Assembly: GCF_014650335.1 (NCBI RefSeq)
Contig: NZ_BMUT01000005.1
Location: 1 to 64,000 of the forward strand
From: Streptomyces hiroshimensis
GTDB taxonomy: Bacteria > Actinomycetota > Actinomycetes > Streptomycetales > Streptomycetaceae
Direction: 5' to 3'
Length of the DNA: 64,000 bases
Shown here: in pieces, positions 238 to 64,000 of the stretch
How the letters are laid out: each line of letters begins with the position of its first letter
Position numbering within the stretch: the stretch's first letter is position 1
The notes under the pieces: model-generated
Told to the model about the DNA's origin: nothing
What the model saw: the letters and a program-made list of their open reading frames with translations, nothing else
Database searches by the model: none
Translations under genes and position numbers: made by a program

Positions 238-423
238 ATGTTTACCCGTAATCGGGTGACACTCGCGTTGAGCGGAACGACCAGGAGGAATAATCCCGGT
301 CGTTCACAGCGTCCTCGCTGTGTGTTGCCTGACAGCCCCGAAGGACCGGCAGGACTTTCAAAGGAACCGCGTCCCAGCCAGAAGGCTGAGGACGGGGTAT
401 TTTATAGTCTGGCGTTGACTTTT

Positions 424-5773: not shown

Positions 5774-5846
5774 GCCCCGTGCGGCGCCCCATGCAGCGCA
5801 TCAAGCGCCGCCCCATGCGGGCCCCATGCACCGCCCCATGCGGTGC
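5774..5846 (+). repeat. Short hairpin-repeat array (GCCCCATGC family)
   Basis: Four exact GCCCCATG copies (5786, 5810, 5821, 5833) plus GCCCCGTG near 5775 fill the gap between two convergent genes. One copy extends into a clear hairpin, GCACCGC-CCCAT-GCGGTGC (5828-5846), 13 nt from the stop of the next gene. It belongs to the repeat family described at 45235-45378. Confidence 0.75.
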
Positions 5847-11290: not shown

Positions 11291-11603
11291 GCGATACTCC
11301 TTCTGAGTGTCTTTTGGCCACCGAGTGCCCCTGGTCTCTTACTCAGGGGAGCTTCCGTTACTCGGGAGGCGGGGTCCGCTGGGCGCTGTCCCCAGAGACC
11401 CACGAAGGGCGCTCCGGAGGCGCGTACACAAACGGCCGTTGCACAGAGTACCAGCCCGGACCAGTCCACCTCGCCGGGAGGGGCGGATACGGGGCCCGGG
11501 GCGGGCCGCAGGAGAGCTTGGAGGGCCTGGGGCGGGCGCCTGGGGCGGCGGGCCGTCCCGCCCCATGCACCCGCCCGGCCCCGTGCTCCGCGTCTATACC
11601 GTC
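11291..11603. other. Intergenic region between rpsO and eccD
   Basis: This 313 bp gap upstream of rpsO and downstream of eccD holds no protein I recognise; the open frames here are not protein-like. It must contain the rpsO promoter, but no convincing -35/-10 pair stands out. One copy of the GCCCCATG repeat lies at 11560-11567, 37 nt beyond the eccD stop, in line with the position of this family elsewhere in the window. Confidence 0.6.
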
Positions 11604-13164: not shown

Positions 13165-13278
13165 CACCGTTCCGCGCATGGGGCCGTCGCCTTCGGGGCG
13201 ACAGGCGGCAGGCGGGTGTGCGCGCCGTGCCGCTGCCACGCGGAACTTACTTGCCGTGCGGAGGGGTTGAGGCATCCG

Positions 13279-16200
13279 GTGAGCCAGATCGTGGTCAGTC
13301 GTCCGCCGAGGGCCCTGCCGCCGGAGGTGCCCGGCGAGGCGATCCGGCTGGAGGCGCCGCCGGAGCTGCCGAGGGACCGTCAGGAGGGGCTGCTGATGCA
13401 GCTGCTGCCGACGCTCGGGATGGCCTCGTCGATGGTCTACTTCTTCATGCCGGGCGCCGCTCCGATGATGAAGATCATGGGCGTCCTGATGATGTGTTCG
13501 ACGCTCGGCATGACCGTGGCGATGATCGTCCGACACCGTCAGGGCACCCAGGGCCGGACCGCCGACATGCGCCGCGACTACCTCAAGTACCTCGCGCAGA
13601 CGCGGCGCACCGTGCAGCGCACCGCCAAGGCGCAGCGTGACGCGCAGTTCTATCTGCACCCCTCCCCCGAGCAGCTGTGGTCGGTGGTGGCCGAGGGCAC
13701 GCGTCTGTGGGAACGGCGCGCGAGCGACGAGGACTTCGCACAGGTCCGCATCGGGCTGGGCACGCAGCAGCTCGCGACGCCGCTGGTGGCGCCGGAGACG
13801 GCTCCGATAGACGAGCTGGAGCCACTGACGACGGGCGCGATGCAGCAGTTCCTGGCGGCGCACGGCTCGCTGGACGGCATGCCGGTGGCGCTGTCGTTGC
13901 GCGCCTTCTACCACGTGACGCTGTCGGGCGAGCCGGAGGCGGTGCACGGCACGGCGCGGGCGCTGGTGGCCCAGTTGGCGACGCTGCACTCGCCGGACGA
14001 CCTCGTCGTGGCCGTGGTCGCGGCACGGGGCGCGGCGTCGTACTGGGAGTGGACGAAGTGGCTGCCTCATGTGCAGGTGCCCGGGGCGGTGGACGGGGCC
14101 GGCGCACGGCGGCTGATCGGTGACGACCTGACGGAGCTGGAGGAGCTGCTGCGGCCGCGCCTGGAAGGGCGTACACGGTTCAGCCGGGACGGTCAGCCGC
14201 TGCTGGACCAGCCGCACGTCGTGGTCGTGCTGGACGGTGCCGCGGTGCCGGCGGACTCGGTGTTCGCGGCGCCCGAGGGGCTGCAGGGCGTGACCGTCCT
14301 CGAGGTGGTGACGGGGGATCTGGGCGAGCCGCGCGGCGGGCTGTCGGCCGTGGTACAGCCCGGTTCGCTGCGGCTGGAGTCGCAGGTCGCGGTCTACGAG
14401 GGGGTGCCGGACTCCCTCGCCATGGAGGCCGCCGAGGCGCTCGCGCGGCAGCTGGCGCCGCTGCGCATGGGCACGGGCGGCGACGGCGAGGAGCCGCTGC
14501 TGGCGAACCTGGACTTCACCGACCTGCTGGGGCTGGGTGACGCGGGCTCGGTGGACGTCACGCGCGCGTGGCGGCCGCGGTCGGCGGCGGAGCGGCTGCG
14601 CGTGCCGATCGGCGTCAGCGAGGACGGCGCTCCGGTGATGCTGGACCTCAAGGAGGCGGCGCAGGACGGCATGGGGCCGCACGGGCTGTGCGTCGGCGCG
14701 ACGGGCTCGGGCAAGTCCGAGCTGCTGCGCACCCTCGTCCTGGGCCTCGCGGTCACGCACAGCTCCGAGACGCTGAACTTCGTCCTCGCCGACTTCAAGG
14801 GCGGCGCGACCTTCGCGGGCATGTCGCGGATGCCGCACGTCGCGGCGGTCATCACCAACCTCGCCGACGACCTGACGCTGGTCGACCGCATGCGCGACTC
14901 GATCACCGGCGAGCTGCAGCGCCGGCAGGAGCTCCTGCGCGCGGCGGGCAACTACGCCAACATCCACGACTACGAGCGGGCGCGGGCGGCCGGTGCCGCG
15001 CTGGAGCCGCTGGCCTCACTCGTCCTGGTGATCGACGAATTCAGCGAGCTGTTGACGGCGAAGCCCGACTTCATCGACATGTTCATCCAGATCGGCCGCA
15101 TCGGCCGGTCCCTGGGCGTGCACCTGCTGCTGGCCTCGCAGCGCCTGGAGGAGGGCCGGCTGCGCGGCCTGGAGACGTACCTGTCGTACCGGATCGGCCT
15201 GCGGACGTTCTCGGCGGCGGAGTCCCGTACGGCGCTCGGGGTGCCGGACGCGTACCACCTGCCGTCGGTGCCGGGGTCCGGCTATCTGAAGTTCGGTACG
15301 GATGAGATGACGCGTTTCAAGGCGGCGTATGTCTCGGGCACGTACCGGTCGGCCGCGGGCACGGGGCCCGGCATGGGGCCCGGCGCGGGGCCGCTGCCGA
15401 TCGAGCGCCGGCCGGTCCTGTTCACCGCCGAGCCCGTCCCGGTCACCTACACCGCCGCGGCGCCCGCGGCACCGGCCGCGCCCGGGCCCGGCGACGACGC
15501 GCTGGCCGACACCGTCCTCGACGTGATCGTGCGCCGGCTCGAAGGCCAGGGCCCGCCGGCCCACCAGGTGTGGCTGGCGCCGCTGGAGCGGTCCGCGGCC
15601 CTCGACGAGCTCCTGCCGGCACTCTCGGTGGTGCCGGGCCGCGGCCTGACCGCACCGGAGCACCCGCGCCCCGGCCGGCTCAGCGTCCCGCTCGGCCTGG
15701 TCGACAAGCCCTTCGAGCAGCGGCGCGACGTCCTCCACCGCGACTTCTCGGGTGCGGCGGGCAACATGCTGGTCGTCGGCGGCCCCCAGTCCGGCAAGTC
15801 GACGCTGATGCGGACGCTGGTGTCGGCCTTCGCGCTGACGCACACACCGGCCGAGGTGCAGTTCTACGGGCTGGACTTCGGCGGCGGCGGGATGTCCGCG
15901 GTCGCCGGCCTGCCGCACGTGGGCGGCGTGGCGTCCCGGCTCGACCCCGAGCGCGTACGCCGTACGGTCGCCGAGGTGGCGGGCATCCTGGCCCGCCGCG
16001 AGGAGTACTTCCGGGCGCACGCGATCGACTCCATCGGCACCTACCGGCGGCTGCGGGCGACGGGCGAGATCACGGACCAGCCGTGGGGCGACGTCTTCCT
16101 GATCGTCGACGGGTGGGCCGGCTTCCGGCAGGAGTACGAGATGCTGGAGGGGGTCGTCGCCGACCTCGCGGCGCGCGGCCTCGGCTACGGCATCCATGTC

Positions 16201-24560: not shown

Positions 24561-26372
24561 TCAGCCCTTGCCGAAGGCGAGGAGCAGCTTGTTGGCGTCG
24601 GGGCCTTCGGAACTGCTGCCCGACAGTCGCGTGTTGGCGATGATGAGGCGGTCCCCCTCGTACAGGTACCTCGCGCTGAAGAACATGTCCTCGGCCTTCA
24701 TGGTGGCCTTCGGGGCCTGCAGCACGACCTTCGGCTCGCCGTCGGGGCCGATGCTCACGACGGCGCCCGCCTTGTCGTACGACGGCTCCTGGTACGCGAA
24801 GACCTTGTCGCCCTCCGCCCGGAGCGGCATGAGCTGAGGCTTGGTCCTCTTCGAGGCCCACTTGCGCTTTCCGGTGTCGAGGTCGAAGGCGTGGATCTCG
24901 TTGCCGGCCGAGTAGCTGTCCTCACCGCCGGTCGGCAGGTAGAGGGTGCTGTCGGTCGCGGCGACGCCCTGGCAGCCGCCCAGGTCGTGACCCATGATCG
25001 ACAGACCGCAGGTCGGCGTGTACGTCTCCTTGCCCTGGTCGATGACCGAGCGTTCCTTGCCGTCCTTGAGGGCGACGACCGCGCCGCTCTTCTTGTCCCG
25101 GGACAGGAGGAAGACGACGGCCGGCTCGCTGGAGTAGATCTTCCTGGTCCCCAGGCCCTTGCGGCCGTCGTACGTCCACACGGGCTTGCCGGTGGAGGTG
25201 TCGAGTTTCTCGATGTGCGAGGTCTCGTCGTCGACGCACTGCCACGAGCGCAGCATCGCCTTGCCGCCCGCGAAGCCGTCCACGGAGCAGCCGGCCTCCA
25301 GTCCGGGGGTGGAGATGGGCTCCCCGTCGCTCACCCGGAGCATGCCGGAGCCGCCGAACCAGGCCGCCCCGACCGCGTTGCCGCTGAGGGCCATGTCCAG
25401 TCCGATGAAGCTCTCTGCGAAGCCGCCGGACTTGGGGATCGGCTTGTCCCAGCCCTTCTTGCCCTCCTTGAGGTCGAGCATGGCGTAGTTGGCGCAAGAG
25501 TCCTTCGTGTCGCCGTCGTAGGCCACCACGACCTTGCCGTCGTCCGTGACGTCCGCGGGCGCCGCGCAGACCCTCTTGGGCAGGGCGATGGACCACTTCT
25601 CCTTGCCGTCGGAGGTGGAGTAGGCGATGACCTTCTCCTGGACGGTCTTGACGACGTAGTCGCCGAACGCCCACACGCCGGGCACCGCGGAGCCCGCCTG
25701 CTCGACCTGGGGGCCGTTCTGGTTGATGAGGACCTTGGCCTCGCCGTCCTGGCGACCGCTGTTGGGATCGTCGTCATCCTCGCCGTCGCGCGGGCCGGCC
25801 GTACCACCGCTGTCGCCGCCGGTGCTCCCGTTCTTACCGGGTGAGGCACTGCCGGAGGCCTTCGGCGGGTGCGGGTCGTCGCCGCCGCTGCCGGTCAGGG
25901 CCCATACGCCGCCTCCTGCCGCGAGCAGTACGGCGACGGCCGCGCCGATGATGACGGCCGTCCGCTTCTTGTCCGCTCCCCCGGCAGGGGGCCCGGCGGG
26001 CGGCGGGGCGCCGAAAGGCTGCCCCGGGGGCGGGTAGGCACCGTAGGGGCCGGGCTGCTGCTGCGCGTACGGGTTCGGGTTCGGGTTCGCCGACGGGTAC
26101 GGGTACGGGGCGGCCGGGGAGGGGCTGCCGGGCGCCGCGGGGCCGCCCCATGCGGGCTGCGCGGGCGGGGCACTGGGCGGCGAAGGCGGCACGGGGGGAA
26201 CTGCCGGCGGCTGGAAGGACGGCTGGGTGGTCGCCTGGGCCGGCGGCGGAGCGGGCGGCTGCTGTGGCTGCTGCGGGGCTTTCGCTGCCGGGTCCTGCGG
26301 TGCGCCGGTGCCGTCCTCCGGAGTCGGAGGCTGGTTCGGCGGCATCGGTGGGGGTGGGGGCGGCTGGACCAT
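24561..26372 (-). CDS. Membrane-anchored PQQ-like beta-propeller protein
   Basis: A 603-aa protein in three parts: a Pro/Gln/Ala-rich N-terminus of about 130 residues (NPNPNPYAQQQPGPYGAYPP), one transmembrane helix near residues 137-157 (VIIGAAVAVLLAAGGGVWAL), then an acidic linker and an extracytoplasmic beta-propeller with repeated PQQ-type blades (SDGKEKWSIAL, KLDTSTGKPVWTYDG, AFDLDTGKRKWASKR). Several Cys pairs fit an exported domain. ATG 26372 has AGAGGT upstream. It is convergent with the eccE unit and divergent from the EspI-like gene. Possibly a sensor or scaffold for the secretion system; a Ser/Thr kinase-like cytoplasmic part is absent. Confidence 0.82.
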   Translation of the reverse strand: MVQPPPPPPMPPNQPPTPEDGTGAPQDPAAKAPQQPQQPPAPPPAQATTQPSFQPPAVPPVPPSPPSAPPAQPAWGGPAAPGSPSPAAPYPYPSANPNPNPYAQQQPGPYGAYPPPGQPFGAPPPAGPPAGGADKKRTAVIIGAAVAVLLAAGGGVWALTGSGGDDPHPPKASGSASPGKNGSTGGDSGGTAGPRDGEDDDDPNSGRQDGEAKVLINQNGPQVEQAGSAVPGVWAFGDYVVKTVQEKVIAYSTSDGKEKWSIALPKRVCAAPADVTDDGKVVVAYDGDTKDSCANYAMLDLKEGKKGWDKPIPKSGGFAESFIGLDMALSGNAVGAAWFGGSGMLRVSDGEPISTPGLEAGCSVDGFAGGKAMLRSWQCVDDETSHIEKLDTSTGKPVWTYDGRKGLGTRKIYSSEPAVVFLLSRDKKSGAVVALKDGKERSVIDQGKETYTPTCGLSIMGHDLGGCQGVAATDSTLYLPTGGEDSYSAGNEIHAFDLDTGKRKWASKRTKPQLMPLRAEGDKVFAYQEPSYDKAGAVVSIGPDGEPKVVLQAPKATMKAEDMFFSARYLYEGDRLIIANTRLSGSSSEGPDANKLLLAFGKG

Positions 26373-26767: not shown

Positions 26768-29700
26768 GTGAGCAGCGATCGGGACGAGATCCGCGCAGGC
26801 GGGTCCGCAGCCGGCGGGGACCGGTCCGACGCCGGTCACGATCACGAGCCCGACACCATGGGCGAGTTCACCATCGACTACACGCCACCTGCCTGGTACA
26901 CGCAGAACGCCTCTTCCGCAGTGGCTCCCACGGCGGGCCCGGGCAGTACCGGAGGTGAGGGGCAGCAGCTCCCCCCTCCCCCGCCTTCGGGTGAACCGCT
27001 GGGGATGCCGTCTGCGGCAGCCGAGGCGCGGAGCGACCGGGCGGAGCCCGCTTCCGGGGAGACCGCTGCGGCAGGCGGGCTGAAGAGCCCTGCCACGATG
27101 CGGTTCTCCGCAGCAGCACTGCAGGACGAGATCGCGGCACGGGGCGGCGAGGCCGCATCCGGGCCGGGCACGAACGCCGGTGACGCAGTGGCTGCGGCAA
27201 AGGCCGACAGCGTCCCGGGGCCGGGCGCCGCTGGCGCCCCGGGTGACACGGACGCCGTGGCCCGGCATGAGGCGGGCGCTGCGGCGCGGCATGAGGCCGA
27301 CGCCGAGTCGGGCACGGGGCCCGGGCACGAGGCCGCGGGCCCCGATGCCGGGAGCCGCTCCGAAACCGTTGCGGGCCGGACGGAGGACGAGAGTGCTTCT
27401 CCCCTCGCCGGTGCCACTGCTGACGACCAGAAGGCCGGCCGGGGCCCCGCAGAGAGCGCGCACCCGGCTCCCGAGGACAGCTCGGGGGCCGCTTCGGCTC
27501 ACGAGGCCACGGAGACCCCCTCCGACTCCGAGGCCGGGCACGCCGCTCCACGCCCCGAGGGCACCATGCGGTTCTCCGCCGCCGCGCTGCGCGACCGCGT
27601 CGCCGAGCGTACGAGCGAAGAGCCGGCGGAAGCAGCACAGGATGCGCAGGCGGCCGCCTGGGCCCCGCCGCCGGTCCCCCAGGCCGCGCTGCCGCCCCTC
27701 CCGCCGAACTTCGCCCCTGCGGCACCGGCACCGGCCGTACAGCAGCCTGCCGACATGCCCGCGCCTCCCCCCATGCCACCGCAGGGCTTCCCGCCCGCCC
27801 CGGGCCCGTACGCCGCGGCCCAGCAGGGCGGTTCCGCCGTGCCCGCCGCTCCTGAAGCGCAGCAGGCGCCCGCAGAGCCTCAGTCGGCCGCGCATGGGGC
27901 CGGCGGTGTCCCTGTCCCGCCGAACGGCCTGACGCCGACTCCCTACCCGCCTGCGCCGTCCTTCCCGCAGCCCGGCGCCCAGGGCGCCCCCGTGCCGCCC
28001 GCGCTCAACTCCCCTGCGCCGCAGGACGGCTACGGATACCCGCGGGCCGACGCGCATGGAGCGCCCGTGCCGCCGCCCCTCGACGGCTCCCCGCAGCCCG
28101 GCATCCACGGCGCGGCCGACAACGCGGCCCCCGCCCCGTACACGGCTGCTCCCGCCCCGCAGGACGGTTACGGGTACCCGCGCCCCGAGGCGCACGGGGC
28201 GGCCGCCCCTGTACCGGCGCCGGCGCCGGCGCCCCATGCCTTCCCGGCGCCGCCCGCGCTGCCGCACCAGGCCGCTCCCGCGCTTCCCCCCGCGCAGGAC
28301 GCCGCCGCTCCGACGCCGCAGGGCCTCACCGGGCCGCATGAGGCCCCCATGCCGCCTGCGCCGAACACTCTCGCGCCGCAGGGCGGTTACGGATACCCGC
28401 GCCCGGAGGCCCCCGTGCCCCACGCGCCGGTACCTCCTGCGCTCGACGGCGCCCCGCGCCCCGAGGCGCACGGGGCCCCGGTGCCCCCGGCGCTGGACGG
28501 CCTCCCGCAGCCGGACGCCCACGCCCCGCAGGCCCCGACGCCCACGCCCCACGCCGACCCGCAGCAACTCCCCTACGCACAGCCCTCCTTCGACGGCTCC
28601 CCCGCGCTGCCGCCGGCGGTGCAGGCACAGCCGGGCCCCGCGGGCGCGCACGAGGCGGCTGCGGCGCCCGCCCCCGCCCCGTACCCGTACGCCCAGACCC
28701 CGTACCCCGACGCCTCCCTGCCGCCGGCCGGGGACGGCGGCCAGGGCGGGGTGCCCGCCGACCCGCGCGCCGGCGGCTGGCCCACGGTGACGCCGGAGCA
28801 GCGGCAGCGGTCCGTGCACGGGGCCCCGCTCGGGTTCACCGCTTCCATGGAGCTGTCCTCGGAGCGGCTGCTGCGCAGCAAGCCGAAGCCGAAGAAGCAG
28901 ATCGCCGGCCCCCGGTTCAAGTTCGGGGGCAAGAAGGAGGAGGCGGAGCGCCAGCGCAGGCTGGAGCTGATTCGTACGCCCGTCCTCTCGTGCTACCGGA
29001 TCGCCGTGATCAGCCTCAAGGGTGGCGTCGGCAAGACGACCACGACCACCGCCCTCGGTGCGACGCTCGCCAGCGAGCGCCAGGACAAGATCCTCGCGAT
29101 CGACGCCAACCCCGACGCGGGCACGCTGGGCCGCCGCGTGCGGCGCGAGACGGGCGCGACGATCCGTGACCTCGTGTCGGCGATCCCGAGCCTGCACAGC
29201 TACATGGACATCCGCCGGTACACCTCACAGGCGCCCTCCGGCCTGGAGATCATCGCCAACGACGTGGACCCGGCGGTCTCCACGACCTTCAACGACGAGG
29301 ACTACCGGCGGGCGATAGACCTGCTCGGCCGCCAGTACCCGATCATCCTCACGGACTCGGGTACCGGTCTGCTCTACAGCGCCATGCGCGGCGTCCTCGA
29401 CCTCGCCGACCAGCTGATCATCGTCTCGACGCCCTCCGTCGACGGCGCGAGCAGCGCCAGCACCACGCTCGACTGGCTCCATGCGCACGGCTACGCCGAG
29501 CTCGTCTCCCGCAGCGTCACCGTCATCTCCGGGGTCCGCGAGACCGGAAAGATGATCAAGGTCGAGGACATCGTGTCCCACTTCGAGCAGCGCTGCCGCG
29601 GTGTGGTCGTCGTCCCGTTCGACGAGCACCTGGCGACCGGCGCCGAGGTCGACCTGGAGATGATGCGGCCGAAGACCCGCGAGGCCTACTTCAACCTCTC

Positions 29701-43066: not shown

Positions 43067-43759
43067 GTGGCGTTCACGACGACGACGCGGGGCCCGGCCG
43101 GCCCGCACCGACGCAGGGTACTGGCAGGGGGCGCCGCGGTTCTGCTGAGCGCCGGCGCCGGGGGGCTGCTCACCGGCTGTTCGGGCGCCTCAGGGGCACC
43201 CGCAGGCCCTTCCGCCGCGGAGCGGCTGCGCACCGCGGCGGGGCACGACTCCACGCAGCTGCTGGCGCGCTACGACGCCACGATCGCGGCGCACGGGGGG
43301 CTCGCGGAGCGGCTGCGGCCGCTGCGGGAGGAAGTGGCGCGCCATGCGGAGGCTTTCGGCGCGCGGCGGGGGGCGTCGGGCGTGCCGCGGGGTTCGCATG
43401 AGGCGGTGCATGGGGCGGCGGAGGGGGGCTCGCATGGGGCCCCGCATGAGGCAGCGGACGAGGGTGCGGAGGAATCGCACGGGGCGACGACCCCGGCGCC
43501 GTCCGGCTCCCCGGGCCCTTCTGAGTCGTCGTCGCCTTCTACGGGCTCCCTCGCCCCAGGCGCTTCCGCTTCCGCGCGTACAGACGACGTACCGGGCGAT
43601 GAGAAAGCGGCCCTGGCCGCGCTGGCCGACGCCGAGCGGCGCACGGCGGACAACCGCGCCAAGGCTCTCGGCTCCGCCCCGCCCGAACTGGCCCGGCTGC
43701 TCGCCTCGGTGGCCGCCGCGGGCGCGGCCCACGCCTACCTGCTGGGGAGTGACGCATGA
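43067..43759 (+). CDS. Lipoprotein with His-Gly-Ala repeat insert
   Basis: A 230-aa exported protein: twin-arginine-like start (HRRRVLAGGAAVLLSAG) and lipobox LLTGC with Cys at about 44. The flanks (residues 55-105 and 180-230) are helical and conserved in style with the next gene's partner. In the middle (about 105-165) is a low-complexity part with repeated HEA/HGA triplets, encoded by CATGGGGC/CATGAGGC copies of the short hairpin repeat (43397, 43409, 43433, 43445, 43478), followed by a Ser/Pro-rich stretch. GTG start with AGAGG upstream. Its stop overlaps the next start (ATGA). Function unknown. Confidence 0.8.
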   Translation: MAFTTTTRGPAGPHRRRVLAGGAAVLLSAGAGGLLTGCSGASGAPAGPSAAERLRTAAGHDSTQLLARYDATIAAHGGLAERLRPLREEVARHAEAFGARRGASGVPRGSHEAVHGAAEGGSHGAPHEAADEGAEESHGATTPAPSGSPGPSESSSPSTGSLAPGASASARTDDVPGDEKAALAALADAERRTADNRAKALGSAPPELARLLASVAAAGAAHAYLLGSDA

Positions 43760-44287: not shown

Positions 44288-45223
44288 ATGAGCAACGCCG
44301 ACGACCGCTTCGCACCTCCGGAGCGGCTGGTGCGGACCCTGGGCTCCGAGCCGGCGGACGGGGCGGGGCGCCAGTGGCTCGCTTCGCTGCCGGAGCGGGT
44401 GCGCGAGTTCGCGGAGCGCTGGGAGCTGACCCCGGAGCGGGTGCACGAGCCGGGCGGGCGGAGCAGCGTCGTCGTCCTCGCGCGCCGCGCCGACGGCACG
44501 GGCGCCGTGCTGAAGCTGGAAGTGCCGGGCGAGGCTGCCGCCTTGGAGCATGCGGCGCTGGCGTACTGGAACGGCCTGGGGGCGGTCCGGGTGCTCCAGG
44601 CGGAGCCCGAGGCGGGCGCACTCCTCCTGGAGCGGCTGCGTGCCGGTGTGAGCCTGCGGTCCCTGGCCGAGGCGAAGGCGGTCCTGGAAGCGACGGCGAC
44701 GCTGCAACGCCTGTGGGTGCGTCCGGCAGATGACCACCCGTTCCTTTCGGTGGCCGACCACACGACGCGCCTCGCAGGCGACCTGCGGAAGCAGCGCGAG
44801 CAGCCGTGGGCGGCCGACGCCCGAGCCGTCGTCGACGAGGCCCTGGAGCTACGGGACGCGCTGACGGCCGACGCCGACGCCGCAGAGCCGGCGTCGCTGC
44901 TGCACGGTGACTACGAGCAGGGCAAGGTGCTGGCGGGCGAGCGGGCCCCTTGGCTGGCCGTCGGCCCCAGGCCGCTGGTGGGTGAGCGGGCCTACGACCT
45001 GGCGTGGCTCGCCCGTGACCGGGTCGACACCCTGATGGCCTCGCCCGGGGCCGCAGCCATCGCCCGGCGGCGTGTGGCCAAGCTCGCCGACGCCCTGGAC
45101 GTCGACCGCGACCGGCTGCGCGGCTGGACCCTCTTCCGTACGGCGGAGGCGGGCATGCGCGAACTCGCCTCAGGGGCGCGCGCACGGGGCGAACTCCTGC
45201 TGGAGTTCGCGGGGATGCTCTGA
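44288..45223 (+). CDS. Degenerate aminoglycoside-phosphotransferase-like protein
   Basis: A 311-aa protein with the fold of the APH family (streptomycin-6-kinase type): K76 in AVLKLEVP would be the ATP lysine, and HGDYEQGKVL (H206, D208) the catalytic loop. Two key residues are altered: the loop Asn is K213, and the metal-binding Asp of the IDP motif is G226 (LAVGPRPLVGE). So it may be a pseudokinase or use another chemistry; antibiotic resistance should not be assumed. It follows the ferritin-like gene by 31 nt and is the last of the rightward trio, ahead of the 45.3 kb repeat array. Confidence 0.75.
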   Translation: MSNADDRFAPPERLVRTLGSEPADGAGRQWLASLPERVREFAERWELTPERVHEPGGRSSVVVLARRADGTGAVLKLEVPGEAAALEHAALAYWNGLGAVRVLQAEPEAGALLLERLRAGVSLRSLAEAKAVLEATATLQRLWVRPADDHPFLSVADHTTRLAGDLRKQREQPWAADARAVVDEALELRDALTADADAAEPASLLHGDYEQGKVLAGERAPWLAVGPRPLVGERAYDLAWLARDRVDTLMASPGAAAIARRRVAKLADALDVDRDRLRGWTLFRTAEAGMRELASGARARGELLLEFAGML

Positions 45224-45234
45224 CGGGGTGTCCC

Positions 45235-45378
45235 GCCCCATGCGGTGCGGGAGCCTCCGCCCCATGCGGGCCCTTCTCCGCCCCATGCGGCGCGAGCACC
45301 CGCGCCCCATGCGGACCCCGTCTCCGCCCCATGCCATGCCGGAATCCCGCCCCATGCGAGTTCAGGCTCCGCCCCATG
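45235..45378 (+). repeat. Array of seven short hairpin repeats, about 22 bp period
   Basis: GCCCCATG occurs at 45235, 45259, 45280, 45304, 45326, 45349 and 45371, i.e. steps of 24, 21, 24, 22, 23 and 22 bp. Most copies extend to CCGC-CCCAT-GCGG, a tiny 3- to 4-bp stem with a fixed CCCAT loop; the 10-14 bp between are unrelated. It fills the gap between the convergent APH-like gene and proS. No ORF, no tRNA. Confidence 0.88.
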
Positions 45379-45417
45379 CGGCCGGGGCACGGGGCCCCGG
45401 CCGTCTTCGACGAACCG

Positions 45418-48690: not shown

Positions 48691-48785
48691 GTGTGGATTT
48701 GCCTCACCGTCGCGGGGCCCGAGGCCATGGGAACAGGTCTTGGAACTGTACCTCTCAGCCTCCTGGCGCACCCCCCTTGTGGCCG

Positions 48786-48793
48786 CATGGGGC
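48786..48793 (+). repeat. Single CATGGGGC repeat copy
   Basis: One GCATGGGGCGG copy lies downstream of ispG, just beyond its terminator, and upstream of the DUF4081 gene. It fits the placement of the family after leftward genes. Confidence 0.6.
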
Positions 48794-48876: not shown

Positions 48877-50034
48877 TCAGCCGGCGACGCTGATCTTGGG
48901 CTCGCCGGAGGCGACGCCGTCCTTCTCCATCTGCTCGGCGATCTTCAGGGCTTCCTCGATGAGGGTCTCCACGATCTTCGACTCCGGCACGGTCTTGATG
49001 ACCTCGCCCTTGACGAAGATCTGCCCCTTGCCGTTACCCGAAGCGACACCCAGATCGGCCTCACGGGCCTCACCCGGACCGTTCACGACGCAGCCCATCA
49101 CCGCGACGCGCAGCGGCACCTCCATGCCCTCCAGACCGGCACTGACCTGATCCGCGAGCTTGTACACATCCACCTGCGCACGACCGCAGGACGGGCAGGA
49201 GACGATCTCCAAACGGCGCTGGCGCAGGCCCAGGGACTCCAGGATCTGCATGCCGACCTTGATCTCCTCCGCCGGCGGCGCCGACAGCGAGACACGGATC
49301 GTGTCACCGATGCCCTCCGACAGCAGCGCACCGAACGCCACCGCGGACTTGATCGTGCCCTGGAACGCCGGCCCCGCCTCCGTCACACCCAGGTGCAGCG
49401 GGTAATCACACTGCGCCGCCAGCTGACGGTACGCGTTGACCATGACGACCGGGTCGTTGTGCTTGACCGAGATCTTGATGTCGCGGAAGCCGTGCTCCTC
49501 GAAGAGCGACGCCTCCCACAGCGCCGACTCCACCAGCGCCTCAGGCGTCGCCTTGCCGTACTTCTGCAGCAGCCGCCGGTCCAGCGACCCCGCGTTCACA
49601 CCGATACGGATCGGCGTACCCGCATCCGAGGCCGCCTTCGCGATCTCCTTGACCTTGTCGTCGAACTGCTTGATGTTGCCCGGGTTCACACGGACCGCCG
49701 CGCACCCCGCATCGATCGCCGCGAAAACGTACTTCGGCTGGAAGTGGATGTCCGCGATCACCGGAATCTGCGACTTCTTCGCGATCACCGGAAGCGCGTC
49801 CGCGTCATCCTGCGTGGGACAGGCCACCCGCACGATCTGGCAGCCCGACGCCGTCAGCTCCGCGATCTGCTGAAGCGTGGCACCGATGTCCGACGTCCTG
49901 GTCGTCGTCATCGACTGCACCGAGACGGGTGCGTCGCCTCCGACGGCCACGGAGCCGACCTGGATCTTGCGGCTGACCCTGCGGTCGGCGAGCTTGATCG
50001 GAACGGAAGGCATTCCAAGCGAAATCGCAGTCAT
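48877..50034 (-). CDS. ispG: 4-Hydroxy-3-methylbut-2-en-1-yl diphosphate synthase
   Basis: A 385-aa iron-sulfur enzyme (GcpE) of the MEP isoprenoid pathway, converting MEcPP to HMBPP. The N-terminal TIM barrel starts [12 protein letters not shown] and has VADIHF, VRVNPGN; the C-terminal part carries the 4Fe-4S ligands in SCPSCGR and GCVVNGPGE. It follows rseP (174 bp gap) and dxr in a leftward row, an order common in actinomycetes. Normal length. Confidence 0.97.
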
Positions 50035-52787: not shown

Positions 52788-52925
52788 GGACTCATTGTTG
52801 CGTCTTCCGCCCGGAGAGCGGACAGGGAGCCCCCGTACGGCCTCTGGGGAGCGGTGTCGGCGTGGGGCGGGGGCGGGCTTACCGGTAGCGAGGAGCCGGG
52901 GGTGAGCGCGGGGCGGGGGCGCCCG

Positions 52926-53112
52926 CATGGGGCGAGGGCAGGCACGCATGGGGCGGAATGCCGGCTGCGCACGGGCCGAGGCCACGCCCGCATGGGGCGA
53001 GGCAGACCACCCCGCCGCATGGGGCGCGGCAGACCGCCCCGCGTGGGGCGGGGCGGGGCTGCGTGGGGCGGGGAGACCCTGTGCATGGGGCGGGGAACGC
53101 TGCGCACGGGGC
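52926..53112 (+). repeat. Array of about nine short hairpin repeats
   Basis: CATGGGGC or one-base variants occur at 52926, 52947, 52970 (CACGGGCC), 52991, 53018, 53042 and 53062 (CGTGGGGC), 53084 and 53105 (CACGGGGC), steps of 20-27 and mostly 21-24 bp. Diverged copies stay in phase, so the period is real. Units read CGC-AYGGG-GCG; the last is TGCGC-ACGGG-GCGCA. Orientation is opposite to the 45.3 kb array. Confidence 0.88.
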
Positions 53113-55298: not shown

Positions 55299-55435
55299 GC
55301 CCCATGCGGGGCTCAGGGCGGGGAGTAGTTGGCGCCCCGTGCGGGGCATGGGGCGGGGAGCAGTTGCCGCCTCATGCAGGGCATGGGGCCATGGGACGAG
55401 GCATGGGGCATGGGGCGGCCGGTCAGCGCCCCATG
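55299..55435 (+). repeat. Mixed-orientation short hairpin-repeat array
   Basis: Copies at 55299 (GCCCCATG), 55334 (GCCCCGTG), 55347, 55382, 55402 and 55409 (CATGGGGC) and 55428 (GCCCCATG). Unlike the other arrays both orientations are mixed, so larger hairpins are possible. The last copy lies in the 3' end of the response-regulator gene and supplies its final codons (GMGR). Confidence 0.8.
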
Positions 55436-56148
55436 CCCGGGGTGACCAGACCGCTCTCGTAGGCGACGACGACCGCCTGTGCACGGCTGCAGAGGCCGAG
55501 CTTGGCCATCGCACGGTTGAGGTGGGTCTTGACGGTGGCCTCGCTGATGACGAGCTCGGCGGCGATCTCGGCGTTGGACAGGCCCCGTGCGGTGGCGCGC
55601 AGTACCTCCAGCTCCCGGCCGGTCAGCGCCTCAAGGGCGGCGCCGGGCGGCGCAGCGGCGCCGACGCCGGCGCGCTGGGTGAACGCCTCGACGAGGCGGC
55701 GGGTGACGCTGGGCGCGAAGAGTGTGTCGCCCCCTGCCACGGCCGTGACGGCCGCCAGGAGCCGCTGCGGGCCCGCGTCCTTGAGGAGGAAACCGGCCGC
55801 GCCGGCGCGCAAGGCCGCATACACGTACTCGTCGAGGTCGAAGGTGGTCAGCACCAGGACACGGGGCGGAGGGGGCGGCGCGTCCCGCAGGATGCGCTCG
55901 GTGGCCGTGATGCCGCTGAGGTCGGGCATCCGGATGTCCATGAGGATCACGTCGGGCCGGTGCTTCGCGGCGAGCGCTATGGCCTCCTGGCCGCCGGACG
56001 CCTCGGCGACGACCTCCATGCCGGGCGCGGCGCGCAGCAGGGCGGCGACGCCGGCGCGGATGAGTACCTGGTCGTCGACGACGAGGACACGGATGTCCCC
56101 CGTGGGGCCCGTATCAGGGGCCTTGGTCTCTCCGGCCTTCCCAGTCAT
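55423..56148 (-). CDS. NarL/LuxR-type response regulator
   Basis: A 241-aa response regulator: receiver domain with VVDDQ acidic pair, phospho-acceptor D71 (LMDIRMPDLSG), and conserved T/K (LVLTTFD, LLKDA), then a LuxR helix-turn-helix (LTGRELEVLRATARGLSNAEI, TVKTHLNRAMAKL). It overlaps the kinase gene upstream by 35 nt, so the two form a co-translated pair. The final codons come from a repeat copy. Target genes unknown; orthologous systems often act on membrane stress or transporter genes, of which none is adjacent. Confidence 0.93.
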   Translation of the reverse strand: MTGKAGETKAPDTGPTGDIRVLVVDDQVLIRAGVAALLRAAPGMEVVAEASGGQEAIALAAKHRPDVILMDIRMPDLSGITATERILRDAPPPPPRVLVLTTFDLDEYVYAALRAGAAGFLLKDAGPQRLLAAVTAVAGGDTLFAPSVTRRLVEAFTQRAGVGAAAPPGAALEALTGRELEVLRATARGLSNAEIAAELVISEATVKTHLNRAMAKLGLCSRAQAVVVAYESGLVTPGMGR

Positions 56149-57373
56149 CCCCCGCCGTCCCTCTCCCGTGCGACGCCGGCTGCAACGGGAGGGTGAGCCG
56201 GACCTCGAACCCGCCCTCGTCGCGCGGGCCGGCGGCCAGGGTTCCCCCGTAGATCCTGGCGCGCTCGCGCATGCCGATCAACCCGTGCCCGCCTGTCGGG
56301 TCCGGGATGGCCGGAACGTTTCCCTGCCCGGTGTCGGTGACCCGTACGGACAGCCGGTGCGAGCTGAACGCGACGTGGACGGTGGCCCGCGCGGGGCGGG
56401 CGTGCTTGATGACGTTCGTCAGCGCCTCCTGGACGACGCGGTACGCGCACAGGTCGGGGCCCGGCGCGAGGGGCCGCCACTCCCCCTCGATCCGCAGTTC
56501 CACTTCAACGCCTGCCGCCCGCACCCGGTCGGCCGTCTCCTCGAGCCGGTCCAAGCCGGGCGTCGGCTGGTACGGGCCCTCGCCAGCGTTCTCGCCAACG
56601 CCCTCCGGGCCGACGCGCAGGACGGCCAGGAGCCGGCGCAGTTCCTCCAGAGCCTCGCCGCTGGTGGCCGAGATGGTGCCGAGTGCGTTGCGCGCGGTGC
56701 CGGGGTCGGCTGTGAAGACGTAGTGGGCGAGGCCCGCCTGGACGGATATCACCGACATGTGGTGGGCGACCACGTCGTGCAGCTCGCGGGCGATGCGGAC
56801 GCGCTCCTCGGCGACGGCGCGGCGGGCGTTCTCCTCGCGCTCGCGGCGGAGCTGCTCGGTCAGCTCGGACAGGGTGCGGTTGCGGGCGGCCAACTTGCGC
56901 GCGTTGTCGCCGAACTTCCACAGGATGCAGGGCACGACCAGGGACTGGGCTAAAGCCGTCGTGATGTCGTTGTTCCGGGAGAGCAGCCCGCCAGTCACCC
57001 AGACCGCGGCGAGCACGGCGCCGCAGACCGCGGCGTGGGCCGTGCGGCGTACGGAGGCGACCGTGTACAGCGCCAGCATCAGGGCTGCACTGTTGACGAC
57101 CGGCCAGAACCCGGCCGCGATGTACCACAGCCACAAGGCGGTGGCGCCGGCGAAGACCGTGACGGGCGCGCGGCGGCGGGCTGCGAGGGAGAGGTTGATG
57201 ACGCAGATCAGCCCGTAGCCCAGGGCATCCGGCCGGTCCCAGTACCAGCCTTCGGGCGGGCGTTCACTGGCGAGCAGCAGTGCCACGACGGTGAAGCCCA
57301 CCGCCAACGGCACGTCCAGGGCCGCCCTCGGCCAGCCCGCGACATGCCGTTCCAGCGCCCGAACCGTCCGCAT
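56114..57373 (-). CDS. Two-component sensor histidine kinase
   Basis: A 419-aa kinase of the HisKA_3 (NarX/DesK-like) type. Four or five hydrophobic segments cover residues 10-150; no large sensor domain is seen. The H-box is EERVRIARELHDVVAHHMSV (His in RELHDVV), with N-box EALTNVIKHA and G-box GGHGLIGMRER. The C-terminus overlaps the regulator gene. Start: ATG 57373 (MRTVRALERH) is preferred since the N-terminus then resembles relatives; ATG 57409, 12 codons upstream, is possible. Neither has a strong SD. Confidence 0.9.
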   Translation of the reverse strand: MRTVRALERHVAGWPRAALDVPLAVGFTVVALLLASERPPEGWYWDRPDALGYGLICVINLSLAARRRAPVTVFAGATALWLWYIAAGFWPVVNSAALMLALYTVASVRRTAHAAVCGAVLAAVWVTGGLLSRNNDITTALAQSLVVPCILWKFGDNARKLAARNRTLSELTEQLRREREENARRAVAEERVRIARELHDVVAHHMSVISVQAGLAHYVFTADPGTARNALGTISATSGEALEELRRLLAVLRVGPEGVGENAGEGPYQPTPGLDRLEETADRVRAAGVEVELRIEGEWRPLAPGPDLCAYRVVQEALTNVIKHARPARATVHVAFSSHRLSVRVTDTGQGNVPAIPDPTGGHGLIGMRERARIYGGTLAAGPRDEGGFEVRLTLPLQPASHGRGTAGDDWEGRRDQGP

Positions 57374-57707
57374 CGCCGCAGGGTAGCCGCCGTGGCAGCG
57401 GTTGGGCATCGGTCAGGCGGAGGCTGTGCCGCCTACCGCGCCGGTTGGAGAAGACCTTCCGGCTACTGCGTGGGTTGAGGGAGGAATTCCACCCGTTACG
57501 GGACGACCGGCGCGCAGCCGCTCCGTACCGTCGGTGAGGTCGGCCCGGGTTGGTACGGGGGACAGGCCGACGGTACGGGGGAACGCAGTGCGCTCCGCGC
57601 TCTGGGCTGGGCACGGGGCGCACTGTGCGGGCATGAGGCCGGGCTTGCGGCAGCCGCACACGTGGCGTGGGGGCCGGCATGGGGCGGGGGGGCATGGGGC
57701 GAGGCGG
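57374..57707. other. Intergenic region between kinase gene and quinone oxidoreductase gene
   Basis: This 334 bp gap should contain the promoter of the two-component pair. Its left part has no recognisable gene. The right part carries short hairpin repeats (CACGGGGC 57612, CATGAGGC 57632, CATGGGGC 57678 and 57693), the last ending 8 nt before the oxidoreductase stop codon. Confidence 0.65.
57612..57700 (+). repeat. Short hairpin-repeat cluster
   Basis: Four copies of the CAYGRGGC family (57612, 57632, 57678, 57693) directly after the quinone oxidoreductase gene; steps of 20, 46 and 15 bp. Less regular than the other arrays. Confidence 0.65.
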
Positions 57708-58667
57708 TCAGTCGCCGACCGTGAGCACGATCTTCCCGGCGGTGCGGCCCGTCTCCCCGAGTTCGTGTGCCTTGGCGGCCTCCGCGAGCGGCAGGACAGC
57801 GGCGATCTCGGTGCGCAGCCGCCCGGACTCGACGAGCTCGCTGATGCCCCGCAGGCCCGCCAGGTCGGGCTCGACCATCATGCGCACGGCGCGGATGCCG
57901 CGCTCGCGCGCCTCGGCGAGGACCGGCTCCGTCAGGGGGAGCAGCGAGACGAGGGTGCCGCCGGCGCGGAGAGTACGCAAGGAGCGGGCCGGGTAGTCGC
58001 CACTGATGGACTCCACGACGGCGTCGAGGCCGCTGAGCTCCTCGGCGAAGTCCTGCTCGCGGTAGTCGATGAGTTCGTCGGCTCCGAGGCCCCGCAGGAA
58101 CTCGTGCTTGGCGGCGCTTGCGGTTCCGATGACGTACGCGCCCCGCGCCTTGGCGATCTGGACGGCCAGGTGGCCCACGCCGCCCGCAGCCGCGTGGATC
58201 AGCACGCGCTGCCCCTCGGTGACGCGGGCGGTGTCCACGACGGCCTGCCACGCCGTGAGGGCGGCGAGGGGCAGTGCAGCGGCCTGTACGTGGTCGAGAC
58301 CTTGCGGCTTGGGGGCGAAGTGCCGGGCGGGCGCGGCGACGTACTCGGCGTACGCGCCGGCCGGGTGCGGGAAGCGCGGCATGCCGTACACCTCGTCGCC
58401 CGGGGCGTACAGCGTCACGCCGTCGCCGACCGCCTCGACCACACCCGAGACGTCGAAGCCGAGACCGAAGGGCGGGGTGTCCCCGGTGTAGTAGTAGCCG
58501 CGCGCCCGGGTCTTCCAGTCGACGGGGTTGACCCCCGCGGCCCGTACCCGCACGAGGATCTCGGTGGGCCCCGCCACGGGGCGGTCGGTCTCGGCCAGGC
58601 GCAGCACCTCGGGGCCGCCGGCGGACTCCTGACGGATGGCGTGCATGCGGGCGGGGGCTGCGTTCAT
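57708..58667 (-). CDS. NADP-dependent zeta-crystallin-like oxidoreductase
   Basis: A 319-aa medium-chain reductase of the quinone oxidoreductase (zinc-free) group: VRVRAAGVNPVDWKTR, GFDVSGVVEAVGDGV and the dinucleotide motif AAAGGVGHLAVQIAKARGA, with no Cys/His zinc ligands. The expected activity is NADPH-dependent reduction of quinones or enones. ATG 58667 has GGAG 9 nt upstream; the open frame further upstream is not protein-like. It is a single gene between repeat clusters; no regulator is adjacent. Confidence 0.9.
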   Translation of the reverse strand: MNAAPARMHAIRQESAGGPEVLRLAETDRPVAGPTEILVRVRAAGVNPVDWKTRARGYYYTGDTPPFGLGFDVSGVVEAVGDGVTLYAPGDEVYGMPRFPHPAGAYAEYVAAPARHFAPKPQGLDHVQAAALPLAALTAWQAVVDTARVTEGQRVLIHAAAGGVGHLAVQIAKARGAYVIGTASAAKHEFLRGLGADELIDYREQDFAEELSGLDAVVESISGDYPARSLRTLRAGGTLVSLLPLTEPVLAEARERGIRAVRMMVEPDLAGLRGISELVESGRLRTEIAAVLPLAEAAKAHELGETGRTAGKIVLTVGD

Positions 58668-58995
58668 GGCGGTGGGCTCCTTGCGGTCGTTCTGTTTCGA
58701 TGCCCCCAGACTTCCGGAGATCACGAACGACAACGAGTGGCCTGACTGCCACGGTTCGCAAGAATCCGGCCAGACGGGTCGCGAGGTTGCCCTGGGGCCG
58801 CAGTCGCCCCAGCCGACGGCACGAGGCCACCGCACGGGGCTGCTGCATGGGCCCGCCTCCCTCGCCCCATGCGGTTCGGCAGGCAGCCGGAGGGGCACGG
58901 GCAGGAACACAGACGGCCGGGGCGCGCACGGAGCGCGCCCCGGCCGTCAGGCGGGACTCCTCTACCTGCAGGCGCGTGCCTTCAGGTAGTTGCTA
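58668..58995. other. Intergenic region between oxidoreductase and aldehyde dehydrogenase genes
   Basis: This 328 bp gap contains the promoter of the leftward oxidoreductase gene (not resolved), a pair of repeat-family copies (CATGGGCC 58844 and GCCCCATG 58864, 20 bp apart), and the aldehyde dehydrogenase terminator. No protein-like frame was seen. Confidence 0.6.
58912..58948. terminator. Aldehyde dehydrogenase gene terminator
   Basis: A perfect 16-bp stem (GACGGCCGGGGCGCGC / GCGCGCCCCGGCCGTC) with a 5-nt loop, 47 nt after the stop codon. Confidence 0.85.
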
Positions 58996-60441: not shown

Positions 60442-60612
60442 AATCCCGGCCCTTCCCAAGTGGTGTGGATATTGCTCCCCCACGGTAGGTGCGGGGCGGC
60501 CGGGCGCCGATTGTCCGCGGTGGAGCAGTACCGGGGCGGGGGGCACCGCAATGGCGGAGTGGCGGGTGCCTCATGCGCCCTCAGGGCCGAGGACCGCCCG
60601 CCGTCGCAGCGG

Positions 60613-60620
60613 CATGGGGC
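60613..60620 (+). repeat. Single CATGGGGC repeat copy
   Basis: One copy in the 218 bp gap between the regulator and aldehyde dehydrogenase genes, 40 nt after the regulator stop; again just 3' of a leftward gene. Confidence 0.55.
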
Positions 60621-62414: not shown

Positions 62415-64000
62415 TCACCGCTGCAGATCGACGAGCACCGGCGGCGCGCTGTTCCCCCGCACGGAGGTCACGGACAGCACGGCATGCCCCGCAGGCACCG
62501 CGTGCGCCAGCTCCGACGCGGACCAGCGCTCCCGTTCCACCTTGCGCACCGTCACCGACTGGGCGGTCACCGCGCGCCCCGTGACCAGCCTGCGCACCAC
62601 GTGAGTGACGCGGGTCAGCGGCTCGTGGGCAATGACCTGACGGTCGGTGACGTCGCGGGTCTCCACCCACTCCTTGCCCCACACCTCCGCGAAGCGCGCC
62701 CCGTCCCAGGTGGTGACGCCGGAGAACGCCATGCGGCAGCCGACGGAGCCCAGCAGCGCACTGCGCAGGGACTCGGGTACGTCGTCGAGCGTACGGAGGG
62801 TGAGCAGCGCCCCCGCATTGGCCGAACGGAGCCGCGCCAGGCCCCGTACGGCCTCGGGGGTGACGGCGTGGGTGGCGTCGTCGAGGACGAGGCACGCGAA
62901 GAGGGAGCGGTCGCCCCGGGCGACCGCGCACTCCGTGAACTGGGCGAGGACGAGCCGGGCCAGCATCCGTGACGCCTCGGCGTGCCCGCGCTCGGGCAGG
63001 TCGATCCGTACGCGCAGGGGGTGCTCCAGGGCGCGCAGGGAGAAGGTGCGCGAAGGGTCGGTGGTGTCGAAGAAGCGAGCGAAGGCGGGGCGGTCGAGCA
63101 GTGCGAGGCGGTCGGCGAGCATGGGGCCCGCGTCACCGGGGCGGTGCGCCTGGCGCTCCCGCGCGTCGATCTCGCGGATGAGCGCTTCCTGCCCCGCGTC
63201 CGTGAGGGCGGCGCGCAGGGAGGCCACAGCGGCGGGCGTACCGTCCAGGAGCTCGCGCAGTTCGGGGACGGACGGGAAGCGGCCGTGAGCGGCCCGGTAG
63301 GGGCCGAGGATCTGCGCCAGGGCGGTCGCGGCCCGGCGGCCACCCTCACCCGGCAGTGTGGCGGTGAGGTCGCCCACGAGGCCTTCGGCGAGGACTGCGG
63401 CGGCCTCGTCGGGGTCGTCGGTGCCGCCGTAGAGGTCGAGGTCATACGCGGAGTCCGGTCGGCCGATGCGCACCACGACGTCGAACGCCCCGTCGGGCGC
63501 GAGCCCCGCCCCCGCCGCGCCGACCGCGACGACGGCCGCCCGGCCGGCGAGCGCCTGCAGGCACAACGACTCCAGGACGGGGCGGCTCAGCCGGTCCGTC
63601 TTGCCGCTGCCGGGCGGCCCGACGGCGAGCAGGGAGGTACCCAGCAGACGGGGGTCGAGGGCGAACCCGGTACCCCGGTGCAGGTAGGGGTTGCGCTCGT
63701 CGTCCACGGCGGTGCCGATGCGCACCTGCCGGGTGACGAGGTCGTGGCGCGCGGCGCGTACGGGCAGATCGCGCGCACCGGACGGGTGCGCGCAGGCGGC
63801 CGCCCCGTGCCGCAGAACGGCTTCGGTGAACGCGGCGAGCCGTCCCGGCTGCACGCGTACGGTCTGCCAGGCGCGCTCGATACGGGAGTGGTCGACGTCG
63901 TTCATCAGCCCGGCCCGCGCTTCCGCGGCGAGCCGTTCCGCCGCCTCATGCGCGCCCGCGGCGCGCAGCTGGGGCCAGTCGGCCGGGTCCTGGTGCGGAC
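62415..64000 (-). CDS. VirD4/TraG-like P-loop ATPase, 5' end outside window (partial)
   Basis: At least 528 codons of an ATPase with P-loop AVGPPGSGKTDRL and an acidic Walker B LFACLVLDD, in the style of conjugation coupling (VirD4/TraG) ATPases. The nearest ATG is 63905, but the frame stays open with coding-like sequence to the window edge (HEAAERLAAEARAGL just upstream), so the gene most likely starts beyond 64000. It lies 99 bp upstream of the PucR gene. Such orphan ATPases are conserved on Streptomyces chromosomes; a transfer function is not shown and no relaxase is nearby. Confidence 0.8.
   Translation of the reverse strand, partial: PHQDPADWPQLRAAGAHEAAERLAAEARAGLMNDVDHSRIERAWQTVRVQPGRLAAFTEAVLRHGAAACAHPSGARDLPVRAARHDLVTRQVRIGTAVDDERNPYLHRGTGFALDPRLLGTSLLAVGPPGSGKTDRLSRPVLESLCLQALAGRAAVVAVGAAGAGLAPDGAFDVVVRIGRPDSAYDLDLYGGTDDPDEAAAVLAEGLVGDLTATLPGEGGRRAATALAQILGPYRAAHGRFPSVPELRELLDGTPAAVASLRAALTDAGQEALIREIDARERQAHRPGDAGPMLADRLALLDRPAFARFFDTTDPSRTFSLRALEHPLRVRIDLPERGHAEASRMLARLVLAQFTECAVARGDRSLFACLVLDDATHAVTPEAVRGLARLRSANAGALLTLRTLDDVPESLRSALLGSVGCRMAFSGVTTWDGARFAEVWGKEWVETRDVTDRQVIAHEPLTRVTHVVRRLVTGRAVTAQSVTVRKVERERWSASELAHAVPAGHAVLSVTSVRGNSAPPVLVDLQR

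Follow-up and report, generated by a model that had tools for sequence, protein, structure and literature searches.

What is a row of seven short repeated words doing in the gap beside proS in Streptomyces hiroshimensis, and why there? The DNA analysed here (the window) is the first 64 kb, 64,000 nucleotides, of contig C5 (439,563 bp) in a genome of 7.76 Mb and 37 contigs. A sequence-only reading had proposed a seven-fold recurrence of tiny hairpins at 45 kb with steps of 21–24 bp, and the recurrence is present exactly: GCCCCATG(C) occurs seven times between 45235 and 45379, at steps of 24, 21, 24, 22, 23 and 22 bp, with the full CCGC-CCCAT-GCGG form in four of the seven units. Counted as GCATGGGGC, the word has 37 copies in the window against 1.40 ± 1.28 expected (maximum 7 in 100 dinucleotide shuffles), so within the window the excess over background that was proposed as a check is there. 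The arrays reported at 5.8, 53.0 and 55.4 kb and all the single copies named were found as well, together with copies absent from that first list at 13.2, 14.7, 15.4, 26.1, 27.9, 28.2, 43.4 and 63.1 kb, some of them intragenic. The features are as follows.

1–64000, no strand: left third of the motif domain (C5, 1 to about 200 kb)
1–238, minus: 16S rRNA 5' end, the left limit of the motif domain
5786–5841, minus: array of four GCATGGGGC, convergent gap
11560–11568, minus: single GCATGGGGC
13176–13184, plus: single GCATGGGGC
14669–14677, plus: single GCATGGGGC, within a called gene
15371–15379, plus: single GCATGGGGC, within a called gene
26145–26153, minus: single copy (CCGCATGGGGCGG), within a called gene
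27892–27900, plus: single GCATGGGGC
28231–28239, minus: single GCATGGGGC
43408–43440, plus: two GCATGGGGC with GCATGAGGC variants close by, in the low-complexity part of ORF 43067–43759
45235–45379, minus: array of seven GCATGGGGC, convergent gap adjoining proS
48785–48793, plus: single copy (CCGCATGGGGCGG)
52925–53091, plus: five GCATGGGGC plus variants GCGTGGGGC, GCACGGGGC and GCATGAGGC
55299–55436, no strand: six GCATGGGGC in both orientations, plus variants
57677–57700, plus: GCATGGGGC pair
58864–58872, minus: single GCATGGGGC
60612–60620, plus: single GCATGGGGC
63119–63127, plus: single GCATGGGGC, within a called gene

The copies in ORF 43067–43759 sit in its low-complexity middle, and the gene adjoining the seven-copy array (44288–45223) resembles aminoglycoside/hydroxyurea kinases (Pfam APH_6_hur). 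In line with the impression that no named element is involved, no Rfam family matches the repeat at gathering score; in the window only SSU rRNA and Actino-pnp (RF01688; 10807–10866, minus strand) were matched.

Form and placement of the nine-base word

The repeat is a directional 9-bp motif, ccGCAYGRGGCgg; it is not a conserved hairpin, and it does not form arrays with a fixed 22-bp step. In noncoding copies aligned from three genomes the 9-mer tends weakly to be preceded by C and followed by G; its core is invariant by construction since it was set by the search. Covariation at the flanking pairs −1 to −4 gave p > 0.15 in 11 of 12 tests (the single positive is −1/+1 in genome G084, p 0.0055), and pairing stops at the core GC..GC in 26 of 55, 38 of 80 and 32 of 84 copies, so the conserved stem has to be given up. 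Taken whole, the 45-kb array does fold better than all but one of 200 shuffles, whichever strand is used (z −2.57 and −2.49).

The proposed 22-bp period describes the 45-kb array and does not extend to the domain, where same-strand neighbours are mostly 12–27 bp apart. With all variants included, the most frequent spacing in the S. hiroshimensis domain is 24, with much at 20–27 bp; S. roseoverticillatus NRRL B-3500 (G265) and G084 have peaks at 12 and 24 and at further multiples, S. catenulae at 7, 14 and 28, and strain NRRL F-5630 shows no clear period. Because these peaks differ among lineages there is no fixed helical phase, and a unit of two helical turns does not survive the comparison. 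The idea of a protein- or RNA-binding array is plausible for binding as such, without its stem and its two turns.

Copies of all variants fall on both strands (plus/minus 126/117 in S. hiroshimensis, 156/161 in G265 and 207/175 in G084), contrary to a placement nearly always 3' of leftward genes; the bias towards gene 3' ends behind that description is real. Copies per kb in S. hiroshimensis amount to 4.4 in convergent, 1.7 in tandem and 0.4 in divergent gaps (53 copies), and this order recurs in each of five genomes. Summed over the five, the antisense to sense ratio in tandem gaps is 212:112 (212 of 324 antisense), a tally in which orientation means less for NRRL F-5630, whose word is half a palindrome. 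Genes were called with a simple codon-based finder, which gives approximate starts and misses some genes, so coding/noncoding splits are approximate. Where copies lie in genes across the domain of G265 and G084, their commonest reading is HEA (AHEA, PHEA, GHEA).

One domain beside an rrn operon

The main fact beyond the first view of the locus is that the repeat is confined to one domain of about 200 kb. Along C5, from 0 to 300 kb, GCATGGGGC counts per 20 kb are 8, 3, 24, 15, 6, 5, 6, 5, 1, 1, 0, 0, 0, 0 and 1, density declining with distance from the rrn operon past about 160 kb. Pairs of the form GCATGGGGC-N8..20-GCATGGGGC number 22 in the whole genome, 21 of them at C5 5.8–136 kb and one on C7 (binomial 3e-36, for a region picked after seeing the data), and the reversed control pattern gives 0 genome-wide. 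Noncoding density is 1.529/kb in C5 0–195 kb (53 copies) vs 0.029/kb outside (4 copies), and coding density 0.131/kb (21 copies) vs 0.017/kb (12 copies). The contrast is conservative, because five of the pieces in the 860-kb outside sample were chosen for the motif matches they contained. Equal density inside genes, which the sequence-only reading had said would count against it, is not what these numbers show. GCACGGGGC, GCGTGGGGC and GCATGAGGC are enriched in the domain too, GCACGGGGC up to about 210 kb.

The left limit is sharp and lies at an rrn operon, one of six. In genome G005 the same genes adjoin a complete rrn operon whose far side corresponds to the start of C1 in S. hiroshimensis; synteny thus suggests that C1 is the neighbour across the operon here as well, and the first 100 kb of C1 carry the motif at background. 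A 16S model search of the S. hiroshimensis genome returned nothing, presumably because contigs break in rrn operons. Another operon, on C16, was recognised by a 99% match to window 1–420, and its 100-kb 5' flank, the one other such flank tested, has no motif excess; nor does the initial 20 kb in any of 15 further contigs, which are not known to be rrn flanks. With the C1 side, the C16 flank and these contig starts all lacking an excess, a general property of rrn flanks is not supported. C16:1–20000, beside that other operon, contains a palindrome, GTGATCAC, ten times vs 0.7 expected.

The same position, other words

The closest named relative of S. hiroshimensis (G000) in a proS tree is S. roseoverticillatus. 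In it and in G084 the collinear domain is enriched chiefly for GCATGAGGC: the domain totals for GCATGGGGC/GCATGAGGC are 74/15 in S. hiroshimensis (190 kb), 56/106 in G265 (160 kb) and 68/112 in G084 (190 kb). The extent of the domain is similar in G084 and, within the compared sequence, in G265. Across 392 genomes of the genus, pairs (G or A pattern) number 38 in G084, 34 in G265, 23 in S. hiroshimensis and 5 in S. rimosus NRRL WC-3904 (G072); any other genome has at most 5, and the 5 of G410 include 3 from one 7-bp tandem. With a maximum of 38 pairs in these 392 genomes, and of 5 beyond the carriers, the sample does not support the idea that a 200-kb segment came in from a species carrying the motif genome-wide. 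Among the ten places listed for each, the pairs of G084 are all on its C2 at 595–713 kb and those of G265 on its C30 (7), C36 (2) and C32 (1); the first 20 kb of this C32, containing its listed pair, do not map to the domain. Neither G018 (48 kb compared) nor G005 (100 kb) is enriched in the corresponding region. Contigs of G265 (C39), G084 (C27) and G018 (C34) all end at 49.05–49.07 kb of the window (stretch 48.9–49.1 kb), inside a conserved gene at 48877–50013, possibly ispG, which suggests that this gene is duplicated and breaks short-read assemblies.

We surveyed 80 proS loci of GTDB genomes, up to ±10 kb each. The motif family reaches a high count in 4 of the 80 (S. roseoverticillatus 17 GCATGAGGC; S. 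rimosus 8 and S. catenulae 10 GCATGGGGC; S. zagrosensis 16 GCACGGGGC), and two further loci, SID11385 and NRRL F-5630, carry 50 and 56 copies of another word, ACGTCGCG. The remaining 74 loci are without such enrichment within up to ±10 kb, including those of relatives as near as 90–93%. The 8 copies of S. rimosus lie on C171 (20 kb), collinear with C5 40.5–61 kb. S. catenulae has 34 pairs (GCATGGGGC then GCAYGGGGC), all 34 on six contigs mapping to C5 0.6–131 kb (for its contig C32, 20 kb containing the pairs were examined).

The word of NRRL F-5630 is palindromic, CGCGACGTCGCG, with 50 overlapping inverted pairs. Its 74 ACGTCGCG pairs are distributed over contigs C10 (55), C60, the proS contig (15), C52 (2), C32 (1) and C114 (1), so that 70 of 74 are on two contigs syntenic with C5 28–138 kb; C60 and C10 (100 kb) are collinear with C5 28.7–52.8 and 59–138 kb, while C52 corresponds to C5 206–223 kb and C32 to the C1 side. 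The C52 and C32 pieces reach a noncoding word density of 1.7 and 1.9/kb, the domain one of 7.1/kb. The same word in S. hiroshimensis stands at 0.036/kb, well below those two pieces, so either the domain limits are softer in NRRL F-5630 or the word is commoner genome-wide.

SID11385 has 115 pairs over many small contigs. Near 1166, 5107 and 6851 of its proS locus (L165), a longer palindrome-like stretch (ACGTGGCATATGCCACGT-like) stands beside ACGTCGCG copies, and in two of these three cases the sequence downstream is similar as well; the stretch is possibly a promoter or operator present in several copies. In S. zagrosensis, long pure 7-bp tandems (GCACGGA) flank proS on both sides (L127, 2167–2252 and 6251–6316). 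The words CCCGGCTT, TGCGGATG and GGACGGGG of other species looked like a tandem run or scattered, coding words and were left uncounted.

In the proS tree (33 rows: 31 chosen of the 80 loci, G000 and G084) S. hiroshimensis, S. roseoverticillatus and G084 form one clade, S. rimosus and S. catenulae fall in another with relatives between them that are motif-poor, as judged on ±10 kb of proS or less, and the two ACGTCGCG genomes in a third. The GCATG group changes twice on this tree, a count as low in 177 of 500 shuffles and uninformative, with unlabelled rows ignored. Several independent gains and an old feature lost many times are both possible.

How the words change was followed in orthologous gaps. 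In four gaps inspected across G000, G265 and G084 the arrays mostly do not align copy by copy. Global alignments with anchored ends of gaps of 40–900 bp covered 63 of 80 (G265) and 73 of 88 (G084) noncoding GCATGAGGC copies, of which 28/63 (0.44) from G265 are identical in G084 vs 0.12 in non-orthologous gaps and, conversely, 31/73 (0.42) vs 0.13. Flanking 9-mers are identical at 0.10 and 0.09 (null 0.04 and 0.07); between these two close species, the 9-mers outlast their flanks far better. GCATGGGGC of S. hiroshimensis faces GCATGAGGC in 8/42 cases in G084 and 10/42 in G265 (null 0.09, 0.11) and is identical in 4/42 in each (null 0.03, 0.05). In the reverse direction GCATGAGGC faces GCATGGGGC in 8/61 and 8/73 (null 0.05), with 1/61 and 3/73 identical. 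The excess towards concerted base change is modest, about twofold over the alignment null. Inside a genome, neighbouring copies have spacers that resemble each other more (downstream identity 0.38–0.52, upstream 0.41–0.58) than those of random copies do (0.35–0.36 and 0.35–0.38), so some copies arise by local duplication.

A putative factor, its rivals and known systems

The domain keeps a common position while its words are exchanged, and such lineage-specific marking of one domain calls for something tied to place and not to sequence. We propose, at a probability of roughly 0.45, that the 9-mers are putative recognition sites of a factor that acts on the domain and whose specificity shifts from lineage to lineage. 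A sequence-specific DNA-binding or DNA-processing factor would act from the rrn operon to about 200 kb away. Sites would be gained, partly through local duplication, and retained where the DNA is little constrained, which would leave them mostly intergenic, particularly at the 3' ends of genes, with some in coding stretches that tolerate them. Shifts in the specificity of the factor would replace GCATGGGGC by GCATGAGGC in sister species and by an unrelated palindrome in another clade. The model explains why there is a 9-mer at all, why it outlives its flanks, why it also turns up in coding DNA and why another word takes its place in other lineages; that a factor exists and binds, and whatever part it may have in organising, segregating or repairing the domain, is what we infer. 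Several observations weigh against it: the convergent-gap placement and promoter avoidance would also be expected of neutral insertions, local duplication contributes and S. zagrosensis has plain 7-bp tandem repeats, the base switch is only about twofold over its null, 74 of the 80 proS loci are unenriched, and in NRRL F-5630 pieces outside the domain core also exceed the level of the word in S. hiroshimensis.

A thin search, consisting of a homology table of the domain genes and Pfam scans of 20 window proteins, found no factor, and its gene may lie at any place in the genome. Nearly all genes called in C5 0–235 kb have close homologues in G265 or G084, and most domain genes also in the compared sequence of G416, G426 and G005 (beyond 140 kb, C5 was compared only with G265 and G084). 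The 20 proteins include T7SS/ESX parts, RNase J, dapA- and thyX-like genes, a ParA/MinD-like ATPase, a two-component pair and a PucR regulator, and none of them stands out as the factor. The two-component pair (55423–57313) and a zinc dehydrogenase (57708–58667) lie close to the density peak and have counterparts in G265 and G084, and S. rimosus has a DNA match at 55.4–57.2 kb; they were not found in the compared S. catenulae sequence, nor in G005 beyond a 52-residue match. S. catenulae has the motif, and there is no space on its contig C66 into which they would fit, which makes them unlikely as the common factor. A PQQ/BamB-like gene (24561–26192) was found in G265 and not in G084, G416 or G005. 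The window at 11–35 kb carries a Type VII secretion (ESX) locus with EccD, two WXG100 proteins and EccB, beside which lie a weakly trypsin-like protein and the ParA/MinD-like ATPase.

The main rival, a real possibility though a doubtful one, is a local mutational process that creates or expands short GC-rich repeats in the domain with no receptor at all, by replication slippage, template switching or repair copying where the DNA upstream of a heavily transcribed rrn operon is prone to break, chance seeding giving the lineage differences. Replication blockage and breakage at rrn operons are discussed in the excerpt of PMC9723626, and the domain adjoins such an operon. This process would account for the place, the lineage-specific periods (12/24; 7/14/28) and the neutral-looking placement, and it fits the 7-bp tandem runs in S. 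zagrosensis and S. catenulae, the partial likeness of neighbouring spacers and the fast turnover of whole gaps. It explains less well the many 9-mers that stand alone between unrelated flanks, a pattern that neither copying nor slippage would produce, the 9-mer that outlasts its flanks, and the C16 rrn flank without motif excess, though GTGATCAC is abundant in the first 20 kb there.

An unlikely alternative is that a recombinogenic or protected site, Chi-like and favoured in conversion, spreads by biased repair or transfer in a domain with frequent breaks, with no benefit to the cell. Fast turnover and sequence replacement do resemble drive, copies enter coding DNA too, and density falls off with distance from the rrn operon. 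The Chi sites that are known occur throughout the genome and are shared within groups, and the one other rrn 5' flank tested has no excess, both of which speak against it. Very improbable, in our view, is an RNA element of transcribed hairpins ending or stabilising mRNAs, as first suggested; the 3'-end bias, the antisense preference in tandem gaps and the folding of the 45-kb array would suit it, but the stem positions lack covariation, an element serving mRNA ends in general would not be expected to keep to one domain, and copies occur in both orientations and within genes.

Comparison with known systems shows likenesses and differences. REP/BIME and MITE-like repeats are likewise short, intergenic and rich at gene 3' ends, but REP/BIME form a palindromic stem-loop conserved by covariation and are dispersed genome-wide, whereas here one of 12 covariation tests is positive and the repeat is not genome-wide. 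In a CRISPR array one strand carries identical repeats, set apart by unique spacers at regular intervals, at one locus; here 9-bp repeats on both strands are irregularly spaced over about 200 kb. Units of a minisatellite or VNTR are alike over their full length; here the downstream spacers of neighbours have an identity of 0.38–0.52, random ones 0.35–0.36, and some lineages have true 7-bp tandems. Sites of parS are dispersed and short, their function carried by their distribution, and form a conserved palindrome clustered at oriC, while the 9-mer is non-palindromic and differs between lineages (in G005, proS lies 5.63 Mb along a chromosome contig of 7.24 Mb). Eukaryotic centromere satellites offer an analogy, as their position is conserved and their sequence changes fast; they form a homogeneous block, unlike these short sites dispersed among ordinary genes. 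The matS sites of the E. coli Ter macrodomain are likewise a short motif over-represented in one domain only, but they mark the terminus domain and have a known protein, MatP, according to the excerpt of PMC4786541, whereas here dense 9-mer arrays lie beside an rrn operon. The sameness of matS across related species also has no counterpart here, with variant or unrelated words and close relatives lacking enrichment. The 8-bp TRS words of clt and of chromosomal clt-like sites in Streptomyces are similarly short and repeated, and are recognised by a motor, TraB, with plasmid-specific recognition (excerpts of PMC4170104 and PMC9513070); they mark a plasmid transfer locus, in contrast to a chromosomal domain of about 200 kb with a few hundred copies of all variants. 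KOPS and nucleoid-occlusion sites are also dispersed short sites whose chromosomal distribution is their function (excerpt of PMC4786541). The strand polarity of KOPS/FtsK along the replichore is absent here, as the plus and minus counts show.

The nine-base word looks like a fast-changing address label for part of the chromosome. Tentatively, the region may be centromere-like or territory-marking, a conserved domain beside an rrn operon in which site sequences would be exchanged along with a putative fast-evolving factor. We know of no bacterial chromosome with such evolutionary turnover of dense short sites, and a literature search found no such arrays described in the titles and the beginnings of abstracts among the papers listed. 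Under the mutational alternative, the finding would still describe a stretch of about 200 kb of conserved DNA with its own mutational regime. If the recognition-site model is right, Streptomyces would label a chromosomal domain with a system that keeps the address and changes the label. That would offer a tractable bacterial model of how binding sites and their factor evolve together, and chromosome compartments bounded by rrn operons would be tied to a sequence signature.
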